64,000 bases of DNA from Commensalibacter nepenthis. Lineage in GTDB: Bacteria; Pseudomonadota; Alphaproteobacteria; Acetobacterales; Acetobacteraceae. The stretch spans positions 2,101,001-2,165,000 of the forward strand of contig NZ_JASBAN010000001.1 of assembly GCF_029953305.1 (NCBI RefSeq). The letters are read 5' to 3'. Positions 1,197 through 56,741 of the stretch are shown piece by piece. The position numbers and the translations under genes are program-made. Within the stretch, counting starts at the first letter, position 1. Every line of letters begins with the position of its first letter. The notes beneath the pieces were generated by a model. That model made no database searches and was not told where the DNA came from. It was given only the letters and a program-made list of their open reading frames with translations.

Positions 1197-1973
1197 ATGG
1201 TTTGTTCTTCTTTGGATAAAACTAGCGAATGTTTAAAATTGTCTGAACATAAATCTTTGCCTCGGCATGTTGCAATTATTATGGATGGTAATAGTCGATG
1301 GGCTGAGGCAAAATCTTTGCCAAGAGTTGCTGGACATAAAGAAGGGGCGCAAGCAGTCAAGAGGTGCATCAAAGCGGCAATCCAAAATAATATTCCGTGG
1401 TTGACTCTTTATGCCTTTTCCTCTGAGAATTGGCGTCGAACCCCAGAGGAAATTGCTGATTTAACGGCTTTACTAAGATATTACCTAAAGTTCGAAGCGC
1501 GCAAGCTACATAAAGAAGGGGTTTGCGTGCGTATTATTGGGGATAGTGCACGTTTTGATGAGAAGTTACAACGTGAATTCAAGGCAATTGAGCAACTTAC
1601 AGAAAAAAATACGCGATTAATTTTAACGCTTGCGTTGTCTTATGGTGGGCGAGGGGAAATCATTCAAGCCGTTCAACGTATTGCAAAGGATGTACAGGTT
1701 CATAAAATAAAACCGACGCAAGTGACTGAAGAAGTTTTTGCTCAGTATCTATTTGCGCCCGATATCCCTGATCCAGATTTGATTGTCAGAACCAGCGGTG
1801 AATGTCGATTGTCTAATTTTCTATTATGGCAATCTGCTTATGCGGAATTGGTGTTTGTGGAAACTTTATGGCCAGATTTTAACGAAGAGCATTTTAATTA
1901 TATTCTAAATATTTATGTTCGTCGGGATAGGCGTTTTGGTTCTAGACCAGGATTAAAAATTAGTGATAAATAA
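1197..1973 (+). CDS. uppS: Undecaprenyl diphosphate synthase (cis-prenyltransferase)
   Basis: The enzyme adds eight isopentenyl units to farnesyl diphosphate to make the C55 carrier for peptidoglycan and LPS sugars. The HVAIIMDGNSRWA motif places the catalytic aspartate at residue 30. The later RTSGE and SNFLLWQSAYAEL segments, which bind the diphosphate and shape the pocket, are intact. At 258 residues it is slightly longer than most homologues because of about 20 extra N-terminal residues. The ATG at 1197 has only a weak upstream purine stretch. Its last 11 bases overlap cdsA, which indicates a single transcript and probable translational coupling. Confidence 0.95.
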   Translation: MVCSSLDKTSECLKLSEHKSLPRHVAIIMDGNSRWAEAKSLPRVAGHKEGAQAVKRCIKAAIQNNIPWLTLYAFSSENWRRTPEEIADLTALLRYYLKFEARKLHKEGVCVRIIGDSARFDEKLQREFKAIEQLTEKNTRLILTLALSYGGRGEIIQAVQRIAKDVQVHKIKPTQVTEEVFAQYLFAPDIPDPDLIVRTSGECRLSNFLLWQSAYAELVFVETLWPDFNEEHFNYILNIYVRRDRRFGSRPGLKISDK

Positions 1974-2841
1974 TTCAAAATCTTCTTGGCAAGATTTGCC
2001 TCTTCGTGTTGTTTCTGCTTTGGTTATTATTCCAATTGCTCTATTTTGTATTATTTATGGGCAGTGGTTTTATATTGGTATGTTGGGTATTATCAGCATT
2101 GCCATGACTGTTGAATGGGCAAATTTATTTAAAAAGAAACTGTCTAATTATCGTGTTGCAGCCTTTCTCATATGGCCTTTGGTCGCTTATGCAGCTGTAA
2201 TAAAAGGGATGTGGTGGCCAGCGATCTGGATTGTTGGATGTGCTCCTTTTATTTTTGGTCCTCAATTATGGTTGGGGTCTGTTGTCATTGGTGGCGCGGG
2301 CATATCTTTGTTATGGTTACGTTTTATGACAACCTCTGGAATGCATGCGGTTATCTTTATTGTTCTGGTTGTGATTGCAAGCGATAGTTTTGCCTATATA
2401 ACGGGGAAAATTTTGGGTGGACCTAAATTAATTCCTTCTGTTTCTCCTGGAAAAACATGGTCGGGTGCTATTGGTGGACTGGTTGGGGCTTGTTGTGTTG
2501 GTAGTGTTATTGTAGGTTATCTTTGTGCTGGTTTATATACAGCCTATATTGGTGGTGCTATTTTTGGAATGGTTACTGGTGTTGTTGCCCAGATTGGTGA
2601 TTTGCTAGAAAGTAAATTAAAACGAGAATTGGATGTAAAAGATTCAGGCAAGATTATTCCAGGTCACGGCGGGGTGTTGGATCGTTTTGATGCTTTGTTG
2701 CTGGTTTCGATTTTTGTAGCTTTTATCTCTTGTATTTTGCCTGCTGATAAAAGCTTTGATAAATGGGGTGGGTCATTGCTGTCTTCACAAGTTGTAGGCG
2801 ATCAACAACCTGTATTCCTTCCTTTAACAATTTTCAGATAA
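1963..2841 (+). CDS. cdsA: Phosphatidate cytidylyltransferase (CDP-diglyceride synthase)
   Basis: The product makes CDP-diacylglycerol from phosphatidic acid and CTP in the inner membrane, the entry to all phospholipids. The 292-residue protein is a string of hydrophobic helices and carries the full CdsA signature near residues 205-232 (SKLKRELDVKDSGKIIPGHG followed by GVLDRFD). It starts at GTG 1963 inside the end of uppS, the first in-frame start in a tightly packed operon. The C-terminal 30 residues after the last helix are not conserved. The neighbours uppS and dxr fit a lipid/isoprenoid precursor operon. Confidence 0.94.
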   Translation: MINNSKSSWQDLPLRVVSALVIIPIALFCIIYGQWFYIGMLGIISIAMTVEWANLFKKKLSNYRVAAFLIWPLVAYAAVIKGMWWPAIWIVGCAPFIFGPQLWLGSVVIGGAGISLLWLRFMTTSGMHAVIFIVLVVIASDSFAYITGKILGGPKLIPSVSPGKTWSGAIGGLVGACCVGSVIVGYLCAGLYTAYIGGAIFGMVTGVVAQIGDLLESKLKRELDVKDSGKIIPGHGGVLDRFDALLLVSIFVAFISCILPADKSFDKWGGSLLSSQVVGDQQPVFLPLTIFR

Positions 2842-2877
2842 AATATTGTTTCAATTATGTGCAAGGGTATTTAAAAG

Positions 2878-4038
2878 ATGAAAACGGTTTCTATATTGGG
2901 TTGTACTGGCAGCATTGGATGTTCGACGGTTGATTTGTTATTGCAAGAGCCAGCATCATTTCAAACGGTTGCTTTGGTTGGCGGTAAGAATGTAAAAAAA
3001 CTAGCCGAACAAGCCATTGCACTGAATGCACAATATGCAGTTATTGCTGATGAAAACCATTTGGCAGAGTTAAAATCCTTATTAGCAGGTCATTCCACAA
3101 AAGTAAGTGCTGGCAGGCAGGCTGTTTTAGAGGCAGCCTCTATTCCTGTTGATTGGACAATGGCAGCGATAACAGGTGCGATTGGGCTAGAGCCCACTAT
3201 GGCTGCTGTGAAAAATGGTAAATATGTTGCTTTAGCCAATAAAGAAGCCTTGGTTTCAGCTGGTGATGTGATGTTAAAAGCTGTGAAAGAAGCGGGGGCA
3301 ACATTATTGCCTGTTGATTCTGAACATAATGCTATTTTTCAATCAATGGCTGATAAGCAAATTCAATCTATTGAAAAAATCATATTAACAGCATCTGGCG
3401 GTCCTTTTCGGAATACTTCTTTAGAGGATATGAGGAATGTTACATTAAAGCAGGCTTTGAAACATCCAACTTGGACGATGGGTGCAAAGATTACTATTGA
3501 TTCAGCCAGTATGTTTAACAAAGGGTTGGAAATTATCGAGGCTGCTCGTTTATTTGATATGCCGGAACATAAGATTGATGTATTAATTCATCCTCAGTCT
3601 ATTATTCACAGTATGGTGCAATATGAAGATGGCAGTTTAATTGCACAATTGGGTGCTCCTGATATGCGTATTCCGATTGCGCATACATTGGCATGGCCTT
3701 ACAGAATGCGTTCAAATGTGGAACGTCTCAATTTAACGCAAGTTGCAAAATTAGAATTTGAAGCGCCTGATGAAGTGCGTTTCCCTGCATTACGTTTATC
3801 TCGTGAAGCATTAAAGGCTGGTAAATGTGCTCCAACTATTCTTTCAGCTGCCAACGAGGTTGCGGTCGATGCGTTTCTTAAAGAGCAAATTGGGTTTTTG
3901 GATATTCCTGAATCAGTTGAAGCTGTGATGGATAAATTAGGGGCACCAGAAGCGAATAGTATCCAAGAAGTGATATACTGGGATCAAGAAGCAAGAAAAC
4001 ATGCAGACGCATGGATTAAAAATCGCAAGTGTGTCTAA
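2878..4038 (+). CDS. dxr: 1-deoxy-D-xylulose 5-phosphate reductoisomerase
   Basis: IspC/Dxr rearranges and reduces DXP to 2-C-methyl-D-erythritol 4-phosphate with NADPH, the committed step of the MEP isoprenoid pathway. The N-terminal dinucleotide motif is visible (GCTGSIG, residues 8-14; a Cys replaces the more usual Ser). NKEALVSAG, the metal-binding PVDSEHNAIFQ, ASGGPFR and the IIEAARLF/HPQSIIHSMV catalytic segments follow. At 386 residues it has normal length. The product feeds isopentenyl units to the nearby UppS. Identification is secure. Confidence 0.96.
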   Translation: MKTVSILGCTGSIGCSTVDLLLQEPASFQTVALVGGKNVKKLAEQAIALNAQYAVIADENHLAELKSLLAGHSTKVSAGRQAVLEAASIPVDWTMAAITGAIGLEPTMAAVKNGKYVALANKEALVSAGDVMLKAVKEAGATLLPVDSEHNAIFQSMADKQIQSIEKIILTASGGPFRNTSLEDMRNVTLKQALKHPTWTMGAKITIDSASMFNKGLEIIEAARLFDMPEHKIDVLIHPQSIIHSMVQYEDGSLIAQLGAPDMRIPIAHTLAWPYRMRSNVERLNLTQVAKLEFEAPDEVRFPALRLSREALKAGKCAPTILSAANEVAVDAFLKEQIGFLDIPESVEAVMDKLGAPEANSIQEVIYWDQEARKHADAWIKNRKCV

Positions 4039-53000: not shown

Positions 53001-53231
53001 TTATTCTTGTTTTGGTTCAGAAGCAGATGTTTTGTTAAAGTTAATTTCAGTCTTTTCCCCTATCTTTAAAGGATTATTTTGCTGTTTGGGTGTAGGGGGC
53101 ATTGGATCATCTTTGCCAAATTTGTTATCAAACCAAGACATAAATTTTTCGCGTTGCCATACAATATAAGTAACGACCCAAATGAAAATACTGAGAAAAG
53201 CTATGAACCAATTAAAGTAAGTTATCCACAT
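53001..53231 (-). CDS. Small single-helix membrane protein
   Basis: No family is recognised. The 76-residue product starts MWITYFNWFIAFLSIFIWVV, an N-terminal membrane anchor. A short basic segment and a polar, Pro/Gln/Lys-rich tail follow. I chose ATG 53231 because AGGAGG lies 12 bases upstream; a GTG at 53267 would place that site inside the gene. It converges with gshB, with only 3 bases between the stops. Confidence 0.55.
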   Translation of the reverse strand: MWITYFNWFIAFLSIFIWVVTYIVWQREKFMSWFDNKFGKDDPMPPTPKQQNNPLKIGEKTEINFNKTSASEPKQE

Positions 53232-53480
53232 AAAATCTTTTATCCTCCTTCGAGTTCTTGTAAGCACTATATTTATACTCTATATTTATTTTATAATAAA
53301 TAGTAATTAATGTGTAATAAGGGATTACATAGGATATAAAATAAACGACAAAATGTTGTTTTAAAGCGCATGTATTTTATTAATAACTATAAAAAGAAAA
53401 AACTTACTAGATTTTTATTTCTTTTTGGTTAATAAGTCTTGTTAATAATATTGTCATTCACAGTTTTTGGGAGCAATAAC

Positions 53481-54119
53481 GTGCCTCCTTCACCTCATAC
53501 TGCGTTAAATGCAGATGCTGTTAAGTTAGCCTATCGTCGATGGGCGATGGTCTATGATACAGTTTTTGGAAGTATTTCTTCGTTCGGGCGGCGTTGTGCT
53601 GTTACAGAAGTTAATCGTTTACCGGGAACAAAAGTTTTAGAAGTAGGGGTTGGAACAGGTTTAGCACTTCCTTCTTATAATTTTGATAAGAGAATCACAG
53701 GGATTGACTTATCAACCGATATGCTAAAAAAAGCTCGACAAAGAGTCGCCCGTCACAATTTATCTAATGTTGAGAATTTATTTGAAATGGATGCCGAGGC
53801 AACTGATTTTGAAACAGGGTCTTTTGATATTGCGGTTGGGATGTTTGTCGCATCAGTTGTTCCAAATCCAGACCGTCTATTTGCTGAATTAAAGCGTGTT
53901 GTAAAGCCTGGTGGTCATATTTTATTCGTGAATCATTTTTTGGCTCAAAAAGGGATGCGTTATTACATTGAACGCGTTATGGCGCCTGCGTCAAAAGCAT
54001 TAGGATGGCATCCTGATTTCTCAATCGAATCTTTGCTTCCACCAGAAGCATTACAACGTGCAGTTTTACAACCTGTTCGTCCTTTTGGATTATTTACTTT
54101 GGTTCATCTTGTTCGATAG
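53481..54119 (+). CDS. pmtA: Phosphatidylethanolamine N-methyltransferase-like protein (PmtA type)
   Basis: This class I SAM-dependent methyltransferase has 212 residues. The SAM motif is VLEVGVGTGLALP, followed by ITGIDLSTDMLKKARQR, MDAEATDFETGSFDIAVGMFVASVVPNP and VKPGGHILFVNHF. The YRRWAMVYDTVFG start is characteristic of the Rhodobacter-type PmtA, which methylates phosphatidylethanolamine stepwise to phosphatidylcholine. GTG 53481 is preceded by GGGAG at good spacing. Membrane phosphatidylcholine is expected in Acetobacteraceae. Function is inferred from family resemblance. Confidence 0.8.
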   Translation: MPPSPHTALNADAVKLAYRRWAMVYDTVFGSISSFGRRCAVTEVNRLPGTKVLEVGVGTGLALPSYNFDKRITGIDLSTDMLKKARQRVARHNLSNVENLFEMDAEATDFETGSFDIAVGMFVASVVPNPDRLFAELKRVVKPGGHILFVNHFLAQKGMRYYIERVMAPASKALGWHPDFSIESLLPPEALQRAVLQPVRPFGLFTLVHLVR

Positions 54120-54167: not shown

Positions 54168-55481
54168 ATGAATACACATTATAAAATTGGAATGAACACT
54201 TTAATTCTAGCAATATTTGCTGGAATAAGTGGTGGTATCGCGGCATTATTTGTCCAATTTAATGCTTTTTTTCTTGTTTTAGGTGAGCTCAGTAATCGCG
54301 ATTTTATACAGAATTTGCCACAAACGCATGCCAGAATGATGGTATTTTTTGTTCTGCAACCCGCTTTGATGTTGGGATTGGGAAGTTGGTTTGTTCCAAT
54401 TTTAATCAAAACCAAAGATATGGCATTTAAATGGTTAAGTTTTCTTGCCTTTATTTGTCTTTTAATTGGCTTTGCTTGTAATTTTTTGACATTCCTGTAT
54501 CCGCAAATCGTCCTTTTGTCCTTTTATAGTTTGGTGTTTTGGTCTGTTGCGGCATTGATGTTTTCAGCAAATATGTTGATTACGATCATTAATACTAGGG
54601 CAAAAGAAGTCGGTTACGATTCTTTATCCATATTTGTGTGGGGTCAAGGGATTGCTTCTGCATTATTGTTGCCGATTGCATCTGTATTATTGGCAGCATT
54701 AACAAAAGATTATTTTAATGCAGAACAATTAGGCGCAGCTGTCCAGCAAACTGTTAATTCATTTGCCTATCCAATGGTAATAGTTTTAATTATCCCTGCG
54801 ATTTCTTTGATTTTTCATATTGTCGGCACAATCTCAAATCAGACCATTAAACAAGTGCGATATGTCATTTTAACAATGACATTGGTGCCTTTGGTTGTAT
54901 TGCTTGCTTGGAATAAAATGATCTTAAGCCATCAAGTAATTACTTTACATCAGGGTTTCATGCTGCAAATTTTTTACTCTTGTGCATTATATGGATTATC
55001 TTTGTATCTGTTTATTTATTGCCTTCGCCTATTTTTTACAGGTGAAAGACGTTTTCCCGCGCCGATCTTGTGGTCATTTGGCTTTATTGGATTATTAAGT
55101 ATAGGGTGGCCATATCAAGGCATCATGAGCGAAATTGGGTTGATGCATTCTTGTATTTCATATGGTGTTCTGTTTGCTGTATTTGCTGGATTTTATTTTT
55201 GGATGGGTAAAATTCTTGGTAAACAATATTCAGAGTTTTTAGCGAAATTGCATTTTACTCTAACATGCGTTGGGGTTGTCTTTACTTTAGATATGTTTTC
55301 ACTGGGAAGTAAATCTATATTAATCGGTGCGATTTTTATGGGATTATCTTTGTTAACATTCTTTATCGTTCTTATCCATGCATTAAGTAGTAAAGTTAGC
55401 ATATCAAATAATTATTGGGGTGCAGGGGCAGTAAGCTATGAATGGCAACTTCCTTCTCCTGTCTTTTCTCGTGCAAAATAG
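54168..55481 (+). CDS. Degenerate CtaD-like protein lacking the heme-copper oxygen site
   Basis: The protein (437 residues, about eleven helices) is homologous to cytochrome c oxidase subunit I but shorter by about 100. It keeps THARMMVFFVLQPALMLGLGSWF, INTRA...SIFVWGQGI, SYGVLFAVFAGFYFWMGKILG and the end YEWQLPSPVF. His54 and His327 match the two axial ligands of low-spin heme a (bovine His61 and His378). Every ligand of the oxygen site is changed: the GHPEVY helix reads AYPMVI (bovine His240, Glu242 and Tyr244 become Tyr201, Met203 and Ile205), WAHHM reads WNKMI, and the heme a3 His376 position is Leu325. It cannot be a standard oxidase. ctaB follows 11 bases later. Confidence 0.85.
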   Translation: MNTHYKIGMNTLILAIFAGISGGIAALFVQFNAFFLVLGELSNRDFIQNLPQTHARMMVFFVLQPALMLGLGSWFVPILIKTKDMAFKWLSFLAFICLLIGFACNFLTFLYPQIVLLSFYSLVFWSVAALMFSANMLITIINTRAKEVGYDSLSIFVWGQGIASALLLPIASVLLAALTKDYFNAEQLGAAVQQTVNSFAYPMVIVLIIPAISLIFHIVGTISNQTIKQVRYVILTMTLVPLVVLLAWNKMILSHQVITLHQGFMLQIFYSCALYGLSLYLFIYCLRLFFTGERRFPAPILWSFGFIGLLSIGWPYQGIMSEIGLMHSCISYGVLFAVFAGFYFWMGKILGKQYSEFLAKLHFTLTCVGVVFTLDMFSLGSKSILIGAIFMGLSLLTFFIVLIHALSSKVSISNNYWGAGAVSYEWQLPSPVFSRAK

Positions 55482-55492
55482 GATGTAAATTC

Positions 55493-56440
55493 ATGGGGCA
55501 ATTGCTTGCTGATGAAACTATAGGCTCAAAACGGATTCGTTATGATGCGGCTGTGGTAGGCAGTAATGTCAAGGATTGGTTTGTGCTGTTAAAGCCAAGA
55601 GTTATTTCCTTGGTGGTTTTTACAGGTGTAGTGGGAATTATATTAGCACCTGGTCATATTCATCCTGTGCTTGCGTTGATTAGTATTCTTTGTATTTGTA
55701 TGGCTTCTGGTGGGGCTGGTGCCATTAATATGTGGTACGATCGTGATATCGATCAGATCATGCAAAGAACCATAACACGACCTTTGCCGGCAGGCAGAGT
55801 GCATCCAAATGACGCATTAATTTATGGTGTAGGTGTTTCTGTCGTCTCAGTTATTTTGATGTTTTTAGCAACAAATTTTTTGACCGCAGCAATTTTAGCA
55901 TTCTCAATCTTTTTTTATAGCGTTGTTTATACGATATGGCTAAAGCGCTCAACACCTCAAAATATCGTTATTGGTGGGGCTGCTGGTGCATTTCCTCCAT
56001 TGATAGGGTGGACTTCTGTTACGGGTAGTATGGATTTATTTCCAATTATTTTATTTTCTATTACTTTTTTGTGGACACCACCCCATTTTTGGTCGCTTGC
56101 ATTATATGCTTGTAAGGATTATGGACGTGCTGGTATTCCGATGCTTCCCGTCGTTAAAGGAGCAAGGCATACACGTTGGCAAATTTTAATTTATACAATT
56201 ATTTTAGCAATTGTCACTTTATCTCCTGTGTATTTCGGGTATACTTCTTATATCTATATGGGTGCAGCAATTCTTTTAAACGCTGGATTTATTTATATGG
56301 CGATTAAGGTTTTGTTGGAAAAGCAAACTCCAGAAGGACTCAGTTTAAATAATGACAAAGCTGCCAGGCATTCTTTTCGTTTTTCGTTAATATATTTATT
56401 TTTATTATTTCTTGCTTTGATTATCGACCATTTTGTTTAA
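55493..56440 (+). CDS. ctaB: Protoheme IX farnesyltransferase (heme O synthase)
   Basis: CtaB attaches a farnesyl group to heme B to make heme O, needed by bo3-type quinol oxidases. The 315-residue UbiA-family membrane protein has the diphosphate-binding NMWYDRDIDQIMQRTITRPL with the DxxxD motif, plus the second conserved region YTIWLKRSTPQNIVIGGAAG and FLWTPPHFWSLAL. ATG 55493 follows AGGA at suitable spacing; an upstream in-frame start at 55442 lies inside the CtaD-like gene. CtaB presumably serves a terminal oxidase encoded elsewhere. Confidence 0.95.
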   Translation: MGQLLADETIGSKRIRYDAAVVGSNVKDWFVLLKPRVISLVVFTGVVGIILAPGHIHPVLALISILCICMASGGAGAINMWYDRDIDQIMQRTITRPLPAGRVHPNDALIYGVGVSVVSVILMFLATNFLTAAILAFSIFFYSVVYTIWLKRSTPQNIVIGGAAGAFPPLIGWTSVTGSMDLFPIILFSITFLWTPPHFWSLALYACKDYGRAGIPMLPVVKGARHTRWQILIYTIILAIVTLSPVYFGYTSYIYMGAAILLNAGFIYMAIKVLLEKQTPEGLSLNNDKAARHSFRFSLIYLFLLFLALIIDHFV

Positions 56441-56614: not shown

Positions 56615-56647
56615 ACAATATATATAGCATTTATATGCCTAATTAAA

Positions 56648-56688
56648 CAAAACCCCATTCTGTGATGAAACAGAATGGGGTTTTGTTT
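56648..56688. terminator. Strong bidirectional intrinsic terminator
   Basis: A perfect 15-bp stem (CAAAACCCCATTCTG / CAGAATGGGGTTTTG) with an 8-base loop has T- and A-rich flanks. It separates the pmtA-to-CoxF plus-strand run from the convergent minus-strand Tim44-domain gene. Confidence 0.88.
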
Positions 56689-56741
56689 ATATATTATAAT
56701 GATATGAACTGATTAATACATTGAATCAATTCATATATGAA

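Follow-up and report, generated by a model that had tools for sequence, protein, structure and literature searches.

A degenerate oxidase subunit I beside the heme O synthase gene of acetic acid bacteria keeps its low-spin heme ligands and may act as a one-heme partner of CtaB

The stretch of DNA analysed here, referred to as the window, comprises 64,000 nucleotides of the genome of Commensalibacter nepenthis. An open reading frame at 54168..55481 encodes a protein of 437 amino acids with 12 long predicted helices, a degenerate homologue of the oxidase subunit I gene ctaD that will be called pseudo-ctaD, and its product pseudo-CtaD; the coordinates given in a preliminary description, made from the sequence alone, were exact. 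This gene, like all features described below unless otherwise stated, lies on the forward (+) strand. It is followed by ctaB/cyoE (55493..56440), which encodes heme O synthase (TIGR01473, 333.7 bits against a cut-off of 210.3) and is the sole CtaB match above cut-off in its own genome. The start of ctaB is likely to be the ATG at 55493, 11 bases past the stop codon of pseudo-ctaD (55479-55481); an AGGA at 55480-55483 overlaps this stop codon, and the longest ctaB frame begins at 55442. The upstream neighbour is a pmtA-like methyltransferase gene (53439..54119), which scores above the cut-off of Pfam Methyltransf_11 and has the PmtA model NF045882 as its best NCBIfam match, but below the cut-off of that model. 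On the 3' side of ctaB, a terminator-like hairpin of 20 pairs (56644..56689), identified by pattern match only, is the probable end of the operon; the hairpin search returned three candidates against 3.0 expected in shuffles, and this is the one with the longest stem. Between gshB and pmtA, a small open reading frame on the reverse strand (53001-53267, -) has no Pfam match, and weakly similar frames occur close to this position in the loci L041, L045, L139, and L144.

The gene is already in print, which the preliminary description did not know. PMC10715153 describes a "deranged COX1-like" gene of Acetobacter, clustered with ctaB and said to lack all metal-binding residues, whose product would probably stabilise CtaB, with Matsutani 2014 cited in support. 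In PMC5158111, neighbouring loci of A. pasteurianus appear as ctaD (APT_01775) and ctaB (APT_01774), and we infer that the sequences analysed here include this gene. PMC6915089 presents ctaA and ctaB of A. pasteurianus as still functional leftovers of an oxidase cluster, and PMC4596401 reports that neither cyo operon of Asaia has a cyoE next to it. Neither a universal heme pair nor a selection test for pseudo-CtaD was found in the open-licence literature searched, and the available text of Gluconobacter RNA-seq and knockout-collection papers, with supplements outside the search, yielded no passage on pseudo-ctaD. What is new is the low-spin heme pair, universal in the orthologues read and under selection, and the absence of CtaA from 18 of 44 pseudo-CtaD genomes tested.

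Pseudo-CtaD is a subunit I of the heme-copper oxidase superfamily by both sequence and fold. It matches PF00115 (COX1) over residues 6-380 and above the Pfam cut-off (1.1e-28, 100.7 bits), and its match to CtaD_CoxA (TIGR02891, 1.5e-33), with 116 bits against a cut-off of 671, stays far below threshold; the Pfam search of the window protein returned no domain besides COX1. The AlphaFold2 model, based on 66 orthologues, has 12 long helices with a pLDDT of 91.3 and a pTM of 0.92. Foldseek gave 62 matches to it at E <=0.001, and the 50 listed are all oxidase subunit I chains with a TM of 0.77-0.85 by query length. The homology to CtaD/COX1 proposed in the preliminary description is therefore borne out by the PF00115 match and by a TM of about 0.8 to solved subunit I chains, and the four motifs quoted there (INTRA, FVWGQG, VFAGFYFW, and YEWQLPSP) are all present in the translation. 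Chance is excluded, since this structural agreement comes with a pattern that recurs in 93 sequences. The own genome holds two PF00115 genes, pseudo-ctaD and a second gene whose product scores above the cut-off of the CyoB model TIGR02843. The six relatives from the named collection all belong to the genus Commensalibacter, and their proteins are 44-87% identical to pseudo-CtaD.

The ligand positions were read, under the corresponding bovine residue numbers, from an alignment of pseudo-CtaD to the 30 intact CtaD-type proteins that matched PF00115 best. The two axial histidines of the low-spin heme are present: His61 is His54 (codon 54327..54329), and His378 is His327 (55146..55148). The oxygen site, on the other hand, has been erased. 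The HPEVY segment with the CuB histidine, the glutamate, and the cross-linked tyrosine (His240, Glu242, and Tyr244) reads Y201-P-M203-V-I205 (54768..54782), the CuB histidine pair His290/His291 has become K250-M251 (54915..54920), and the heme a3 ligand His376 is replaced by L325 (55140..55142). Pseudo-CtaD thus has neither the three CuB histidines of an oxygen-reducing oxidase nor the proximal heme a3 histidine and cross-linked tyrosine, and it has no FeB histidines of the NorB type, whose places are presumably the CuB columns. The correspondences to the bovine ligand positions had been put forward in the preliminary description exactly as the alignment gives them; beyond these, the window protein is also without the propionate arginines R438/R439, the K-channel Lys319, and the R38-like Arg.

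The distribution of the gene was followed with a profile built from 19 members, which was run on 397 genomes of the family, with at most four candidates scored per genome, and again on 43 chosen genomes. Orthologues were found by similarity, a procedure that copies too decayed to match would escape. The resulting set holds 93 genes from 93 genomes under 20 genus labels, and consists of the window gene and 90 loci, which give 91 complete genes, together with L139 and L144 at the same locus. L044, whose gene is cut by a contig end, was left out of this set, and its genome (G017) was still counted as a pseudo-CtaD genome in the tallies of CtaB, oxidases, CtaA, bc1, and Cox11. The figure of 93 also leaves out at least 11 profile-matching genomes (G341, G372, G362, G376, G401, G300, G322, G342, G373, G386, and G351), which belong to genus labels known to carry pseudo-ctaD. 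Seventeen genomes showed no profile match, and five of them were tested for CtaB, oxidase, CtaA, and bc1, and the other 12 for CtaB. Counts taken across the clade do not equal independent events. The frames of the 90 loci are closed and encode 388-479 residues, except in L086 (497) and L085 (701), where the open frame extends upstream. The frame of L139 (G102, 1956-3515) has 520 residues, a large part of the length of an intact CtaD, with the oxygen-site ligands lost, and is possibly an early form of pseudo-CtaD.

Histidine occupies both low-spin ligand positions in all 93 orthologues. Among 91 genes, the codon of His54 is CAT in 56 and CAC in 35, and that of His327 is CAT in 73 and CAC in 18, so silent changes have taken place at both sites with the residue unchanged. 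Among the residues of the oxygen site in the 91 orthologues, H240 and Y244 are kept in none (0/91 each), H376 in 2, H291 in 6, H290 in 46, and E242 in 52; in 90 of the 91 sequences the alignment shows a gap where R438 and R439 would stand. That other histidines might stand at the CuB and heme a3 places had been named in the preliminary description as one of two observations that would refute its reading of the protein. Across the 93 sequences, no replacement histidine is conserved there; the window protein has eight histidines, of which only H54 and H327 are invariant, and H362 ranks next (81/93). The invariant columns are H, W, W, and H only, both in an alignment of 66 sequences and in that of 93, trimmed to 432 columns. 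The two tryptophans are Trp158 (54639..54641) and Trp248 (54909..54911, the place of bovine Trp288), of which the latter adjoins the former CuB site, and both are unchanged in all 93 sequences although that site is gone. Of the 236 columns that are at least 95% conserved in the 30 intact CtaD, pseudo-CtaD proteins keep a mean fraction of 0.28 and a median of 0.18, and here again no columns but those of the two histidines and the two tryptophans are retained throughout. Retention is 0.47 in helices 1, 2, 10, 11, and 12, presumably those of the low-spin site and their neighbours, against 0.25 in helices 6-8, the permutation p of 0.0002 being a guide only because alignment columns are not independent.

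Pseudo-ctaD is clearly under purifying selection. Its dN/dS (Nei-Gojobori) between the window and G003 is 0.079, against 0.031 for CtaB and 0.032-0.057 for five other neighbours. Over 204 pairs with a dS of 0.02-1.5, the ratio ranges from 0.057 to 0.48, with a median of 0.19 and 58 pairs above 0.3, and in 29 disjoint pairs the median is 0.13 and the maximum 0.38. The branches within the pseudo-CtaD clade add up to about 43 substitutions per site. A functionless relic in slow decay would agree with the rapid change of pseudo-ctaD, which has the highest dN/dS among the seven genes in 6/6 comparisons, and with its absence from the genome G009. It would also agree with the 2014 work of Matsutani, which reportedly calls the gene non-functional through accumulated mutations. 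Nevertheless, a dN/dS below 0.5 in each of the 204 pairs, closed frames found at one locus across 20 genus labels, and two histidines unchanged in 93 sequences make a relic extremely improbable. Neutral drift is ruled out by the dN/dS values and the closed frames, and the gene is not strain-specific, so that the second refuting observation named in the preliminary description did not appear either. The preliminary description had argued that the loss of one site with the other kept speaks against random decay, an argument that is strengthened by the universal H54/H327 pair, by dN/dS, and by the constant place in the operon. Pseudo-CtaD looks like a repurposed membrane protein, not like the product of a dead gene.

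In all 90 complete loci, the pmtA-like gene, pseudo-ctaD, and ctaB follow one another on the same strand, and in 34 of these the longest ctaB frame opens a single base ahead of the pseudo-ctaD stop codon. The wider order greA, gshB, pmtA, pseudo-ctaD, ctaB, a gene with a Tim44 domain, and pmbA/tldD, read as far as the stretches reach, is shared by nine Commensalibacter genomes and four other genera (in a fifth, a contig end cuts the stretch), with uvrB beyond these genes where the stretch covers it. In G131 (L146), the same place is occupied by pmtA, ctaC, an intact ctaD, ctaB, a Tim44-like gene, and pmbA, and both CtaC and CtaD are above their NCBIfam cut-offs (TIGR02891 in the case of CtaD). 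A pmtA-ctaC-ctaD-ctaB locus of this type is taken as the ancestral arrangement on the strength of gene order, and the aa3 subunit I gene ctaD of such a locus would have given rise to pseudo-ctaD. In the tree, the 93 pseudo-CtaD form one clade with a support of 1.0, which branches as the sister group of the whole set of 30 intact CtaD, without falling among the CtaD of the family itself (parent support 0.85). This sister placement speaks against a simple descent from the ctaD of the family, unless it results from long-branch attraction, which is plausible given mean tip distances of 2.15 versus 0.38. As long branches may shape the tree, it proves neither a single origin nor descent, and, as it places the 93 beside the intact CtaD, the case for an origin from the ctaD of the family itself depends on gene order.

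The company kept by pseudo-CtaD was examined in 45 genomes. Exactly one CtaB above cut-off, accompanied by one or more CyoB-like oxidases, is present in 40/40 genomes with pseudo-CtaD and in 0/5 without it, where "CyoB-like" stands for PF00115 score and length in the relatives, the model TIGR02843 having been applied to the own gene only. Three of the five genomes without pseudo-CtaD show only a distant PF00115 match (139-145 bits), and two show none. These five genomes represent few events, and the joint absence of pseudo-CtaD and CtaB may be plain linkage. In the small-genome relatives G061, G147, G097, G101, and G239, the CyoB-like oxidase, CtaB, and CtaA are all absent, while cytochrome b of bc1 is retained in four of them. 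A second copy of oxidase subunit I, broken by a stop codon, is found at G156:C1:787601-788944.

Conversely, CtaB can persist without pseudo-CtaD. In G009 (L143, 1140-2853), pmtA is followed directly by ctaB, and the genome has a CtaB of 303 bits, two large oxidase genes, and no pseudo-CtaD profile match beyond oxidase strength. G208 and G276 also show pmtA-ctaB with no pseudo-CtaD, and G108, likewise without it, has CtaB in another neighbourhood. Among the twelve genomes without profile match tested for CtaB, it is above cut-off in G063, where ctaB stands at the contig start, G081, and G108. The idea that pseudo-CtaD is needed wherever CtaB is kept is contradicted by G009, G208, G276, and G108. 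The ctaB of A. pasteurianus, described as functional (PMC6915089), also weighs against a need for pseudo-CtaD; reportedly, it works in E. coli (Matsutani 2014). The case of G009 also weighs on the main rival to the heme handover proposed below, a purely structural role in which pseudo-CtaD would only stabilise or position CtaB, with the heme or the histidine pair merely holding the fold. Such a role would account for the place of pseudo-ctaD before ctaB and for their joint absence in five genomes, and a stabilisation of CtaB has been proposed in PMC10715153. Taken alone, it leaves the invariant heme ligands unexplained while most once-invariant residues have changed, and we consider it rather unlikely.

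The distribution of other heme and oxidase genes narrows the possible roles. CtaA is present in 26 of the 44 pseudo-CtaD genomes and in 0/5 without pseudo-CtaD; heme A is therefore unlikely in the remaining 18, and its handling as a general role is ruled out. Cox11/CtaG is found in four intact-CtaD controls and in 0/47 other genomes, with no match in the own genome. The search for CtaC, the CuA subunit, in the own genome returned only a COX2-type match of 107 bits, below cut-off and adjoining CyoB, so that the CtaC and CtaG/Cox11 partners of an aa3 complex are both missing there. COX2 is above cut-off in the four controls and in ten other pseudo-CtaD genomes, away from the pseudo-ctaD locus where compared, and these ten thus seem to have another oxidase. 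Cytochrome b of the bc1 complex is encoded in 35/44 pseudo-CtaD genomes, in 4/5 without pseudo-CtaD, and also in G009.

These data bear on the possibility that pseudo-CtaD is a redox protein, either an electron carrier or a quinone-linked cytochrome, using the low-spin heme. Bis-histidine hemes in membrane proteins commonly take part in redox reactions, and oxidases receive their electrons at the low-spin site. Of the functions suggested in the preliminary description, a heme-handling partner of CtaB fits best, whereas a single-heme electron carrier fits less well, because CtaC and the arginines R438/R439 on the CuA side are gone, a tie to bc1 is unsupported (9/44 pseudo-CtaD genomes are without cytochrome b, and four of the five lacking pseudo-CtaD have it), and bo3-like quinol residues are missing. 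The latter positions, 8 and 5 before His54 and assumed from the E. coli oxidase, are not conserved, the commonest residues being A/P and R/G. A redox role is, on this evidence, improbable. Lower still stands a heme sensor exerting product feedback on CtaB or on the operon: the genes adjoin and the heme site is kept, but the window protein carries no Pfam domain other than COX1, and no more than 43-44 of the 93 sequences align at the C-terminal EW motif, which leaves this role very improbable.

The preferred reading, held tentatively and with somewhat less than even confidence, is that pseudo-CtaD is a ctaD-derived one-heme partner of CtaB, which would hold or hand over heme O for the bo3 oxidase. 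With acetic acid bacteria relying on a bo3-type quinol oxidase, ctaC would have left the locus, and ctaD would have lost the CuB/heme a3 oxygen site and been kept as a 12-helix membrane protein. Its bis-histidine site H54/H327 would be fit to bind one low-spin heme, presumably heme O or B instead of heme A, at any rate in genomes without CtaA. Working beside CtaB, pseudo-CtaD would take new heme O into the old low-spin site, and would then hold it for the bo3 oxidase or pass it on. Holding heme O at CtaB is the simplest role that can be proposed, since it makes use of the kept site and of the company kept. A bolder version, in which the catalytic subunit of a lost oxidase has become a dedicated one-heme carrier bringing heme O from CtaB into bo3, with Trp248, next to the vacated CuB site, as a possible mark of a new ligand in the former oxygen pocket, is doubtful.

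Compared with the CtaD of aa3 oxidases, pseudo-CtaD shares the fold, the helices, and the low-spin heme ligands, and an intact CtaD stands at the same place in G131; however, it has lost CuB, heme a3, the cross-linked tyrosine, the K-channel lysine, and the propionate arginines, is about 100 residues shorter, and has no ctaC at its locus and no ctaG in its genome. The bo3 subunit CyoB, a separate gene of the same genome, has the superfamily fold in common with it and would share CtaB as the supplier of heme O, but pseudo-CtaD is without the oxygen site and the bo3-like quinol residues. The deranged bc1 complexes of Acidocella and Acidiphilium, as described in PMC10715153, are a further case of a respiratory subunit kept after ligand loss with a structural role proposed; these have lost the ligands of cytochrome b_H, whereas pseudo-CtaD keeps the ligand pair of the other heme in every sequence read. 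The likeness to the deranged COX1-like protein of acetic acid bacteria lies in a COX1-like gene directly beside ctaB, both in the window and in its relatives. The same source has all cofactor residues lost from that protein, a printed claim against which the low-spin pair, kept in 93/93 sequences under purifying selection, bears (PMC10715153).

If the proposed role is true, pseudo-CtaD would be a natural pseudoenzyme of an oxidase that evolution has stripped of one heme site out of two, and a ready-made scaffold for the low-spin site in isolation. How heme O, which is hydrophobic, reaches an oxidase from its synthase is poorly known. A conserved one-site subunit I beside the heme O synthase would make this handover directly testable, and, in the bolder version above, acetic acid bacteria would possess a heme chaperone derived from an oxidase.
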